In this document: positions 1,558 through 56,400 of the stretch, one piece after another
Position numbering within the stretch: position 1 is the stretch's first letter
How the letters are laid out: every line of letters starts with the position of its first letter
Origin: Enchytraeus crypticus
Lineage: Eukaryota > Annelida > Clitellata > Enchytraeida > Enchytraeidae
Length of the DNA: 64,000 nucleotides
Direction: 5' to 3'
NCBI GenBank assembly: GCA_905160935.1
Contig: CAJHZI010000697.1
Span: 812,001-876,000 of the forward strand
Position numbers and translations under genes: made by a program
Notes under the pieces: model-generated
Database searches by the model: none
Told to the model about the DNA's origin: nothing
Seen by the model: only the letters and a program-made list of their open reading frames with translations

Positions 1558-4500
1558 GTTTTGTTCTGCTTAAATATTGCGTTGTAGTTGCCGCGATTAT
1601 AAGAAAATCATCTCACTGTCAAGAGAAAAAATAGTTTCATTGTCAATAGATATATAGTAAACAACTAAATCAAATGAATGTAGAATTTCAATCAAAGTTA
1701 AACTATGAGGTAAGCCAAGAGCAGAATATAAAGATTTAGATGGGCTTCTGCATATTCTGAGTGATATGATAAAGAATGTTTATACGTATGTTTTAATTTA
1801 TAGGCATATAAAATATTCTTGCAAGAAACATAGCTCTCTTTTATTAATTTGTATTACAAGATACTAAGCATCTTTTATTTAATAATAATAGCTATATTCT
1901 TAAATTTCAGTATGGAAAGTTATAGTTAATAATTTACCTTTTAAAGGCTTGTTTTTATTATGCAGCTCAGGCATTGTATGACCAGGCACAAGTATTTCTC
2001 AGTGGAACCACAAATAGGAAGAGTCTGGCTAAGTAAGTGAAAATAATCTTCTCTCAATGTCATTCTTTCCTTCTCCAACTTCTCGCTATCCCCTGCCATG
2101 TTTTAAGTCTCATTGTGTGCTTCCTGTATATTAATTCTATTGTATATATTTACTATTTAGTTTCTGTTCTAATTTTTATTATATTAATTACATGTACTTC
2201 ATCATCATCATCATCATCATCATCATATTCTATTGACTCTTAGTTTAGCTAGGATCAGGATACGCGTAAACCATCTTCACTACTCTCTGTCACATACCAT
2301 ATCATCAGTCAATCCCATATTTAAATTGTATTTATATTATCGTGATCAATTTGGTTCTCATTCTCTTTTCTAACCCAATTTCGATTTTAGTTGCATATGC
2401 TTTAGTTTTTGGTTTCCATGGATATATTCCTCTTTATGGTTTGCTGTCATACTCAATGGACTAATTGATTGTTACAAAATATATGCAAACAAAAAACAAA
2501 TACTAAAACAAAGAAGCGCAAGAAGAAGCAAGTGTGCTGGTATACTTTTATGTTTCCTATATACACTGTGTTTTTTATAACTGATACCCCAAATTGTTTT
2601 AACAATAAAGTCATAAGAAGTTGACCTATGTTCTTGAAATTTACAGCACTTGACCACCAGCAAATTCTACAAAACATAGAGAAATTTCGTTTGAATATCT
2701 TTAATAACGTGAAAGTTATAGTTTCGCGAATATGAGTGGGGTCAGATAAGAAATTTCCAATACAGGATTACGGGCGTGTTACATTTAGCATAGATTATCT
2801 CTATAAAAATACTAGCTAACACGCAATATAAAATTTCTGCTAATGCTATTTTGAAGAGCAATCATTTCTTTTCAAAACAACGTAAAATGCGTGCTGATAT
2901 GTTCTTAATTGACAAAGTTATTGAAGTTTTTATGCATGCATTGCATGAAGAGAATAAACGAAGAAGAGGACGCCGCTGCAGTGGCTGCTGCGGTGATAGC
3001 AGTTGTACCCAGACATGCAATGCATGCATTAAGAGTTCAAAAACTTTGTCAATTACGAACATATCAGCACGTATTTTATGTCGTTTTGAAAAGAAATGAT
3101 TGCTCTTCAAAATAGCATTAGCAGAAATTTTATATTGCGTGTTAGCGAGTATTTTTATAGAGATAATCTACGCTAAATGTAACACGCCCATAATCCTGCA
3201 TTGGAAATTTCTTATCTAATGCATGCATTAAAAGTTCAATAACTCTGTCAATTACGACCATATCAGCACGTATTTTATGTCGTTTTGAATAGAAATGATT
3301 GCTCTTCAAAATAGCATTAGCAGAAATTTTATATTGCGTGTTAGCGAGTATTTTTATAGAGATAATCAACGCTAAATATACATGTAACATGCCCGTAATT
3401 CTGCATTGGAAATTTCTTATCTGACCCCACTCATATTCGCGAAACTATAACTTTCACGTTATTAAAGATATTCAAACGAAATTTCTCTGTATTTTGTAGA
3501 ATTTGCTGCTGGTCAAGTGTTGTAAATTTCATGAACATCGGTCAACTTCTTACGACTTTATTGTTAAAACAATTTGGGGTATCAGTTATAAAAAACACAG
3601 TGTATATCAGGGTGTGTATGTAATTTCTGCTGATATATATTTGTATGATCTTTTTAGAACTGTATTTTGTGTCGTTCTGAAGTGACACAAAGCACACTAT
3701 TACATTGCTAGTTATTAGCTACATTTCTGCGAGCAGATTATAGTTTCTGAAGCTAAGTGTAGCTATGTAGGGCTGTGTTTTGTGTCGCTACAGAGCCTAT
3801 GATCTGTTGTCAGAGGTGTAGCTATGTAGTGCTGTATTTTGTGTCGCTACAGAGCCTATGATATGTTGTCAGAGATGTAGCTATGTAGCGCTGTGTTTTG
3901 TGTCTCTACACAGCCTATAATCTGTTCTCAGAGATGTAGCTATGTAGCGCTGTGTTTTGTGTCTCTACACAGCCTATGATCTGTTCTCAGAGATGTAGCT
4001 ATGGAGCAGGGTTGCAAGTTTTTGCCACTGAGTGGAAAAAACCAGATTTTACCATGGCAAAAACTGTCTAAGCGGCAAAAACCCTCCTGGCAAAAGTCCT
4101 TCTTGTCTAAAACATAAAAACTAGTAACAACTAGTTAGGGTTAGGGTTAGCCTATGTAGCGCTGTGTTTTGTGTCGCTACAGAGCCTATGATCTGCTCTC
4201 AGAGGCCGCTGGACTAGGACACGATACGGCAATGGAGAAAGTGGCGTTTGCTCACTTGTTTGGAGATTATCGACCTCTCAACTTAACCAGAGCTAGACTG
4301 TTGTTGGAAAGACTGGCTGAGAAAGGACTGCCCAGAGGTCAACTTGTAAGTAAGAAATCTTTTAGTACAGAAGTCTGATCGACAACATTTTGGTTTTCAT
4401 GTGCATCAAGTTGTTAATCATATTATATATCTGGCTTTTTGAGATTATTCGTTACATTAAGTTTCAACCTTAAAAGCTTCTCCTGATCTTGCCCGCTAAA

Positions 4501-53456: not shown

Positions 53457-56400
53457 CTGCGAAACAAAATAGACAAGGCAAAATATGATAACCCTTACGA
53501 CAGAGATTTCGTGTCTTTTTTGGAAATATTATTTTGTGTTTTGAGCCCAGATTTTCTTAAACTATTTATTGATGTTAACGTGTATAGCATACAGGGCAAG
53601 AATGTAACTGTCTGTTACAGTATTAATGCAGTTTGATTAAGTTATTGTAGTGCAGATAATAATAATTATAATAACCTCCGGCAATTTCTATAGCGTTGTC
53701 ATGGCCGGTGTCCGGTTTTCGAAACCACTTTACAGGTTCCTTGAAGATCTCTCCTTAGCAAGAAAGTGTCTGGCAGTTGAATCTCTTCCCATATGGCTGG
53801 AGCCATTGGCAAAGTCGGTAAGATACTCGACCACGGATCAGTATGTGCGGGGTTCAAATCCTGGGCTCGCCCGTCACTGACATCGCTTTCGAGTGAGGAA
53901 ATTAACGTTAACCTTAGCTTTAGCAGCTTTTTTAGTCACGTTACTGATTCACCTAAAGATACTATATGTAGATACGACTGATAGGAGATTGATGATAACT
54001 TTGAAGATCACCCGTAGAGGATTCACATGCAGAATTTGATCCATCGACCCTAATGCGCTTTTGAATATTGTAACTTAAAGAAGCGATTTCAGTATAGCCG
54101 AAGGTTATTCAATTACATTTGTTCTTTACAGACGTGTTAGTGATATAGCCAAACACTCTTACCTTGTCCTTCAAGGAAGTCTGATCCATGACTTGGTGTT
54201 TGGCAGCCTCTTCATCCAGCAGGTTGTCTTTCCTCAGCAGTTGGCGACCTTTTTCGATGAGCATGCTCTTTGCCTCTGGATATTCTGAGAGCGAATCCCA
54301 GAGATCTTCCTTTGACAGGACGAACAAGTCCGAGTATCCCACGCTGCGTATGCTAGCCGTCCTTCTGTTTCCGTTCTTGTTTCCTTAATAAATCAATCAG
54401 TTTTAAATGAAGTTAACGGTAGCGGGTTTAAATATTGCCTAATTCGTTGTAAGCTATGTATTCTAATAAAATGCAATTTAATAAATTGCTTCCATTTACT
54501 TATATCAGAAAATATTAATAAATTTAAATTCGCTGGGAAATTTATGGTTGATACACAGTTTATATCATACTTCATGTTAACTTAGAATCTGTTTTAACTT
54601 TGCTAAAAACTTTAAATCATGGCAGTGCAGTGATTTACCCGCTATATTTAGAACGCTGATTTCGCCAAACACAGTTCCAGGCAATAGTGTAGCGAACACG
54701 GTATCGTTATCCGGACCTCCCACCACATTCAACTTGCCTCTCTTGATGATGTACAGCTCCTTCCCGATATCTCCCTTCCTACAAACAAAGTCTCCTGGAC
54801 TGAAGACCTGCAGCTTTAGCTTCATTACGAGCTCTGTCAGCAATCCTTCCTCACATTCCTGTCAAATATTGTTCAGTTAGGTATTAACTATACAAGTACA
54901 CACACCGTGTAAACCTTCTGCATAGTAGGGCCTACTTTTAGATTTATGTAGTATCATCATCATCGTAATCGTCGCAATCGTCGTCGTCGTCGTCATCATC
55001 ATCATCATCATCTTCCCGAGAATCCCAATTAACTTGGGTCGGGAATTTAGATTTATGTAATGATGGTTATATATTAAGCAACAATTACAGGGTCAACGCT
55101 GTCAAAGCAGAGCTATAAAACAAGTTCCAAGCATTCTAGCATAATATATCATAATTAAGCAGCATACAAAGATAAAGAAAAGTTCAACATAAACAAATGA
55201 AGAATCAAGAAAGTGTCAAAGAGTACAAGTGTATCAAGAGTAGTGTTTGTTGATTAGTGTACTATTACAGGTTCACTATTATATCATTCCTAATCGATTA
55301 ATTAATTTATCCGTGAAACTACCCGTTCCTATGTGTGTGCACAAGTAAATGATTAACTATAGATAATATTGTTCTCTTATTTATAGACGATAAAAAATTA
55401 ACTTTAAAACTTTAAAGTTAACTTTTTCAGTTTAGCTTTTTAAGTGTTAAACCTTTAACGCTTTGCTTTGTGACTCGCAAAGCAAAGTTGGCAGAACTTC
55501 TAATTTTTCTCCGCGAGCATCTGATCTACTAATTAATTAATTTCTAATTTATCGATAGCTAGGTTAGTTTATATATAAATTAATTGATTCAAACCTTAAA
55601 GATAGCCACTCTCTTCAAGGCCTCCATATTGACGCTGATGGCTATCTCAGCCCTTAGCTTGGCTGGAAGGGCCTGTAGAGTACTCTCTCCACTCAGAGAC
55701 TGCTTGTTGTTCCACAGGTAGTCGTACCACTTGACTATCTTATCCTCAAGCTTCCTGTCTACCTTACGAAGTCTCATGTATCTCTTCACCGCATCAACTC
55801 TCTGCTGGAAATCCGAGCGTTGAGCATTCATGTTGGATAACATACTGCAAAACAAGAGACACAGTGTCAGTGTGGTATATACTGTTATAGATAATAACAA
55901 CAGACACAGTACTAGTGTGGCATATACTGTGAGATAATAACAACAGACACAGTGCTAGTGTGTCATATACTGTAAGATAATAACAACAGACAAAGTGCTA
56001 GTGTGGCATATACTGTGAGATAATAACAACAGACAAAGTGCTAGTGTGTCATATACTGTAAGATAATAACAACAGACAAAGTGCTAGTGTGTCATATACT
56101 GTAAGATAATAACAACAGATACAGTGCTAGTGTGTCATATACTGTAAGATAATAACATATACTGTAAGATAATAACAACAGACATAGTACTAGTGTGGCA
56201 TATACTGTAAGATAATAACAACAGGAGGTAGGCCTATTAAAAGAGATCTTAGAAGTTAGAATGGAAGGAAAAAGAGGCAGAGGCTGGCCAAGGTTAGGTA
56301 TGTTAGACGATTTAAAGATCCACTCATATGTCGAAATGAAGAGGAAAGCGGAAGACAGAGAAGAGTGGAGGCGTTATATACCATGGACCTGCCAGTAGGC

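Follow-up and report, generated by a model that had tools for sequence, protein, structure and literature searches.

Junction-straddling minisatellites resembling amphioxus mirages are in excess over intron interiors in sampled genes of a probable spiralian

Tandem arrays whose repeat unit contains an exon–intron junction occur in genes for SEL1L, paramyosin and a CNG channel in the stretch G000:C601:812001-876000 (64,000 nucleotides; hereafter the window) of the assembly searched (524 Mb, 802 contigs). They are also present in many genes elsewhere in this assembly, where 10–14% of 197 sampled junctions carry one (the lower figure after dropping dubious hits). The arrays are best explained as mirages (a term reportedly coined in a 2002 study of amphioxus Adh3), that is, as duplications straddling a junction that grow into minisatellites, with the excess at junctions inferred to be a mutational bias; the probability of this explanation is put at about 0.7. 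What is new is the occurrence of mirages in a second lineage, at this frequency and with a measured excess.

Models of the three genes, built from reading frames and splice signals, contain 33 introns (15 in SEL1L and 12 in paramyosin, both on the + strand, and 6 in CNG on the − strand). Clear arrays, in which the repeated unit (35–62 bp) holds the local splice site together with exon bases, are found at six junctions, namely the SEL1L acceptors 4183, 6141, 13859 and 16212, the SEL1L donor 7104 and the paramyosin acceptor 49273. Weak or partial arrays lie at four further junctions (acceptors 46275 and 55844; donors 15216 and 47634); these share the splice signal or adjoin it, and in an extension test their similarity stops short of crossing the junction. 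The arrays reported by the first-pass annotation of this DNA are thus real, and its count of nine introns is reached if the weak cases are included (10 junctions in nine introns), but the total of about 38 introns that it gave is 33 in the models. The arrays are as follows.

3758..4007, + strand: acceptor array of SEL1L exon 4183, unit of 59 bp in 4.2 copies, about 22 exon bases
5806..6147, + strand: SEL1L acceptor array, unit of 47 bp in 7 copies, 7 exon bases, functional acceptor 6141
7100..7919, + strand: SEL1L donor array, unit of 41 bp, 5 exon bases, functional donor after 7104
13321..13582, + strand: acceptor array of SEL1L exon 13859, unit of 35 bp in 7.5 copies, copying the first bases of the exon
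15980..16230, + strand: SEL1L acceptor array, unit of 62 bp in 4 copies, 19 exon bases, functional acceptor 16212
48925..49296, + strand: paramyosin acceptor array, unit of 62 bp in 6 copies, 23–24 exon bases, functional acceptor 49273
46049..46274, + strand: weak paramyosin acceptor array, unit of 31/57 bp, CAG/TAAG-like copies (junction at the slash) of acceptor 46275; fails the extension test
47634..47882, + strand: weak paramyosin donor array, unit of 32 bp, copies of GTGAGTCAT after donor 47634; fails the extension test
15216..15327, + strand: weak SEL1L donor-side array, unit of 39 bp, beginning 6 bp past donor 15216; fails the extension test
55844..56157, − strand: weak CNG acceptor array, unit of 43 bp in 7 copies, stopping 7 bp before exon 55844; the exon bases shared are TAT-like only, and the extension test fails

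The donor array 7100..7919 appears as two rows in Tandem Repeats Finder (TRF; 11.9 and 8.5 copies) and holds 18 decoy splice sites. Two of the clear arrays are detached from their exons. The array 3758..4007 no longer touches exon 4183, a dispersed repeat standing in between, and the array 13321..13582 is displaced 277 bp from exon 13859, shows only a short extension through the junction and passes only settings using 10 or 14 exon bases. The dispersed repeat (4005-4133, about 100–140 bp) matches 39 other genomic places among the 40 scored of 154 candidates. Among arrays of period at least 30 in the three window genes, 10/14 are no more than 41 bp from a junction (some not containing it), and the other four are two displaced junction arrays and two interior ones. 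Of the 31,991 intron bases in total, clear and displaced arrays occupy about 2.3 kb, a figure that rises to about 3.1 kb when weak arrays are added, so that intron growth from junction arrays is modest.

The anatomy of 28 arrays was compared. Their units straddle the junction and measure 28–104 bp; several unit lengths and the exon overhang of 13859 were entered by hand, and the unit at locus L108 is uncertain (76–104 bp). Acceptor units (median 62 bp) carry 5–58 exon bases and donor units (median 44 bp) carry 5–28, and the exon share of the unit ranges from 0.05 to 0.78, with means of 0.43 for acceptors and 0.34 for donors. Duplication ends therefore lie at varying distances to either side of the splice site, and because 5–58 exon bases are copied, the duplications do not begin at the junction, as the first-pass annotation had supposed. 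In the second CNG gene (CNG2), clear donor mirages lie at G000:C601 877859 and 882519, and one CNG2 donor outside the window has a 50 bp unit, about 20 bases of it exonic, in 12 copies. A depletion of units divisible by three was considered and is unconvincing (5/28).

Which copy is spliced was examined by aligning joined exons to protein relatives (five for SEL1L, three for paramyosin; CNG was not included). In the eight array introns of SEL1L and paramyosin, the exon-proximal join needs no gap against any relative, except at intron 2032-4183 (gapless to 3/5); joins at other introns are gapped at 6222-6953 (5/5), 14024 (1/5) and 16334 (2/5), and for intron 6222-6953 an acceptor at 6947 is likelier than one at 6953. 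Because its joins align gaplessly to most relatives, the exon-proximal copy is probably the used splice site. The earlier claim is that the functional site is always the copy touching the exon; the arrays at 4183 and 13859 are detached from theirs. Decoy splice sites are indeed left behind: AG or GT is intact in 88/98, with a mean identity of 87% over the 30-base window (copies under 21/30 being uncounted), and the decoys are thus not obviously weeded out. Such retention could also be expected if selection keeps the extra sites, for example as spare or regulatory ones. The functional sites at mirages are, however, not weaker than others (acceptors 1.6 vs. 1.71, donors 2.86 vs. 1.42; neither difference significant), so that a weakness of functional sites at mirages is rejected, and selection for spare sites is judged improbable.

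The preference for junctions was measured in genes that the first-pass annotation had not covered. The samples comprise 60 of 81 myosin-head matches, 20 of 57 CCT/TCP1 matches and, from six flanking genes, 18 donors plus 23 acceptors; the myosin and CCT exons were hand-picked from the match lists, mostly without internal stops, before their sequence was inspected. The test window, with 6 bases of exon and 24 of intron, and its threshold (22/30) were fixed from a terminal-copy test on the window genes, in which only windows in the last or first copy of an array count, as they do for a junction. The reach of 200 bp was fixed once the myosin exons had been inspected, and the CCT exons are the only sample for which every setting was preset. 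Of 199 junctions 197 were used, the low-complexity acceptor windows of L051 (24/30) and L097 being left out; L102 and L097, which came up solely in a free scan, do not enter the count. The flank junctions 206434, 47847, 47767 and 216733 stand outside the test, and the weak-score flank acceptors 170720, 204770, 218201 and 220737 were kept. After the first scan, splice sites of six myosin loci (L032, L081, L086, L047, L074 and L033) were reassigned by conserved position, and the L033 window of the pooled test is placed three bases off.

A nearby copy is found at 15/118 junctions of myosin-head exons (74/2369 local intron windows), at 8/40 junctions of CCT exons (acceptors 6/20, donors 2/20; 16/727 windows) and, at 1000 bp reach, at 5/41 junctions of the six flanking genes. 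Pooled at 200 bp reach, an intron-side copy is present at 27/197 junctions (13/99 acceptors and 14/98 donors), compared with 119/3892 intron windows at 10–125 bp and 23/1928 windows at least 70 bp away; with only terminal copies counted, the difference is 4.5-fold and about tenfold, respectively. Random sites in 264 kb give 1.0–2.6%. A bootstrap over gene clusters (34 contigs or genes, 18 with a hit) places the junction rate at 9–18.5% and its ratio to the far control at 5.5–27.7. The control rate falls with distance from the exon (57/662 at 10–25 bp, 34/974 at 30–55 bp, 16/967 at 60–85 bp, 7/956 at 90–115 bp and 5/333 at 120–125 bp), as expected if most exon-near arrays include the junction. 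By eye, seven of the 27 hits are dubious (the donors of L039, L051, L080 and L103, CNG2 164684 and PANKA 203254, and the acceptor CNG2 166002), and 20/197 remain. The evidence that junctions are preferred over intron interiors in these genes is strong, and the preference first read from the window is borne out.

A TRF check on the 80 loci points in the same direction. At a period of at least 20, 16 arrays span a junction (L039 being dubious), 24 are confined to introns and none is confined to an exon; two exon rows have a period under 20. At a period of at least 36, 15 arrays span a junction and 6 do not, or 17 and 4 when L081 and L108, which are junction arrays by the window test, are reassigned. 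The median period is 54 for junction-spanning arrays vs. 25.5 for intron-only arrays (these two loci being left out of the intron rows). By a hand estimate (158 junctions, 54,393 intron bases), uniform placement would put about 10–15% of units across a junction.

These results bear on the view that introns are simply rich in minisatellites, that some overlap junctions by chance and that those on the exon side are purged. This base-rate reading was adopted first, on the window controls, and was given up after the myosin, CCT and pooled tests. A naive control, in which 12–21% of 36-base intron windows in the window have a nearby copy (thresholds of 22–28/36) and junctions do not exceed them, speaks for it, and so do the borderline terminal-copy control in the window and the absence of significance in a same-threshold test at 28/30; the naive control counts each array once per copy. 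Chance overlap is difficult to reconcile with the roughly tenfold and 4.5-fold differences in the unseen genes or with the predominance of spanning arrays at long periods, and is considered quite improbable.

Two further accounts of the excess were tried and rejected. Microhomology of splice motifs as a driver receives little support: strong splice motifs away from known junctions have copies at 10/447, compared with 32/2702 random sites (acceptor-like 8/291 vs. 19/1337; donor-like 2/156 vs. 13/1365), and the excess over intron interiors is not explained by motif strength. Slower decay of the constrained functional copy is disfavoured as a main cause, as the excess persists when a junction copy of at least 28/30 is demanded with the other side under 22 (9/197 vs. 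33/3892 and 4/1928), whereas with one threshold on both sides it is weak (9/197 vs. 107/4208). The same-threshold rule lets middle copies into the control, and the larger contrast requires the two-threshold rule.

Several observations weigh against a bias of the junction itself. Within the window, terminal-copy controls in the same introns give acceptors 4–5/33 vs. 4.8–5.4% (last copy) and donors 1–3/33 vs. 5.5–6.6% (first copy), by setting; according to which control is used, the junction excess there is weak or lacking, and it is suggestive at most. Exon shares of the units depart somewhat from uniformity towards the intron (Kolmogorov–Smirnov p 0.015). Five of the six reassigned myosin sites are hits, and without these and the seven dubious ones the pooled count becomes 15/197. 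With a single threshold of 28/30 on both sides the excess is by a factor of 1.8 (p 0.07), and donors alone show none (3/98 vs. 57/2110). Under that rule the intron rate rises with GC content from 3/323 (10–20% GC) to 8/86 (60–70%), and near the junction mirage introns are richer in GC than others (0.379 vs. 0.320). Rates also vary by gene, PANK and CASK together having 1/26, that one dubious. In view of the same-threshold and GC results, the argument from age and the freedom from base composition stand on weaker ground than the excess does.

These two results lower confidence in a boundary bias and raise it in a rival, in which duplications are common in exonic or GC-rich DNA generally, those internal to exons are purged and those straddling a junction survive, so that no hot spot at splice sites is needed. 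Consistent with this, duplication ends fall anywhere 5–58 bases inside the exon, exon-only arrays of period at least 20 number 0 in 80 exons, and exons are richer in GC (0.49–0.51) than the first 60 intron bases (0.32–0.38); the rise of intron arrays with GC at 28/30 fits as well. There is, however, no direct sign of exon-internal duplications, in-frame ones included, and intron windows show no GC trend at 22/30. Such a filter is considered less likely than not, and exon–intron borders as mutational targets are favoured over it only slightly.

Collapsed or stuttered repeats in the assembly could in principle mimic arrays, given that copy numbers are known from the assembly alone and that the draft genome of amphioxus contains an aberrant assembly of a globin mirage (PMC3087553). 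Against this, TRF identities are 70–96% in the 16 spanning arrays, so that their copies differ, and the pattern recurs on many contigs (18/34 contigs or genes with a hit); an artefact of this kind is very improbable.

Under the favoured explanation, in which boundaries are mutational targets, a mirage would start as a tandem duplication of about 30–100 bp reaching from the exon into the adjacent intron, and further copies would then be added by slippage or unequal exchange. The array would persist because the exon-touching copy (the last at acceptors, the first at donors) is still spliced, so that the extra copies become intron and are harmless. The excess would then reflect a mutational bias of exon–intron boundaries and not mainly a selective filter, and possible sources of bias are the change from GC-rich exon to AT-rich intron DNA or transcription-linked breaks.

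The first-pass annotation knew of no named phenomenon that would predict such a frequency, but amphioxus mirages share the anatomy of these arrays. They have been described in Adh3, the globins BflGb6 and BflGb9, troponin C and PGBD5 as minisatellite-like tandem copies across 5′ and 3′ exon–intron boundaries, with units of 10–160 bp; many copies carry AG or GT, regular splicing is kept and copy number varies between haplotypes (PMC3087553, PMC3902484). The present arrays likewise span the boundary on donor and acceptor sides, and their units of 28–104 bp fall within this range. They differ in that, in the accessible portions of those reports, amphioxus mirages are described gene by gene, whereas here they are counted over sampled junctions against a control. 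Among the matches listed, no mirage reports or counts beyond lancelets were found, in a search mostly not covering subscription journals. A second haplotype of the SEL1L locus or of the CCT locus L093 was not found among the scored candidates (40/154 and 40/6040, respectively), and within the same limited test the array parts of these loci have no match elsewhere. Two observations concern the CCT loci: a CCT exon is followed downstream by a dispersed repeat (L093:602-853), whose 6040 candidates include about 40 scored matches, and G000:C259:219813-222410 and G000:C400:245545-248142 have identical TCP1 match scores, as if they were haplotypes or a recent duplication assembled apart.

In the Rogers model, an intron is gained by tandem duplication of AGGT-bearing exon DNA (as named in PMC3087553). 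Mirages resemble this process in that spare splice sites are created, but in the present arrays the junction within the unit already exists and its intron becomes longer, and no new intron is shown. Potato RdRp is reportedly a case of intron gain by tandem duplication, and a 2007 study by Zhuo is said to derive human introns from tandem arrays (its title, by which it is known here, concerns the origin of new introns). Introners are dispersed repeat families carrying splice sites; mirages are like them in being repeated sequences with splice sites, dispersal being the introner feature.

The identities of the SEL1L and paramyosin genes are backed by protein database searches, and Pfam finds Sel1 repeats in the SEL1L protein; for the CNG protein it recognises the domains Ion_trans, cNMP_binding and CLZ. 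The SEL1L protein is 62–65% identical to Branchiostoma and 76% to a further protein, and in a midpoint-rooted tree of 40 rows, which has no named annelids, brachiopods or bryozoans, molluscs are its nearest named group. For paramyosin the closest named protein is that of Dreissena (56%), the closest rows reach 69% and one fragment reaches 83%. The host is not an amphioxus; to judge from these proteins, a spiralian is likeliest.

A second CNG gene directly adjoins the first and continues beyond the window.

62690..64000, − strand: 3′ part of the second CNG gene, continuing into L019, where the out-of-window portion has two clear donor arrays with units of 50 and 28 bp

Three genes in tandem outside the window (L022-L027, − strand) are presumably pantothenate-kinase-like, to judge by homology. 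Within the window, a 17/51 bp array (40717-41391) fills a paramyosin intron to 2 bp short of acceptor 41393, and 23009-23628, where no gene is recognised, consists of 62 copies of the 10 bp unit ACAATTAATG with 97% matches. Frames at 240-1336 (− strand) resemble the reverse transcriptase of a non-LTR (non-long terminal repeat) element, as judged by eye only. Rfam gives no match in the window at gathering thresholds.

More broadly, it is tentatively proposed, at somewhat less than even odds, that tandem duplication targets exon–intron boundaries across the whole genome in at least two bilaterian lineages distant from each other (lancelets and a spiralian), and that mirages are a standing mode of intron growth. 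In the accessible portions of the earlier reports, mirages come across as a peculiarity of a handful of lancelet genes; one sampled junction in 7–10 makes them countable, which allows exon edges to be tested as mutational hot spots and introns to be tested for growth from their ends. The choice of the spliceosome among up to about twenty near-identical sites becomes testable as well, and decoys can mislead gene prediction, which is a warning for annotators. If the proposal is true, junction-straddling duplication would keep supplying spare splice sites from which intron sliding, new exons and intron gain could arise.

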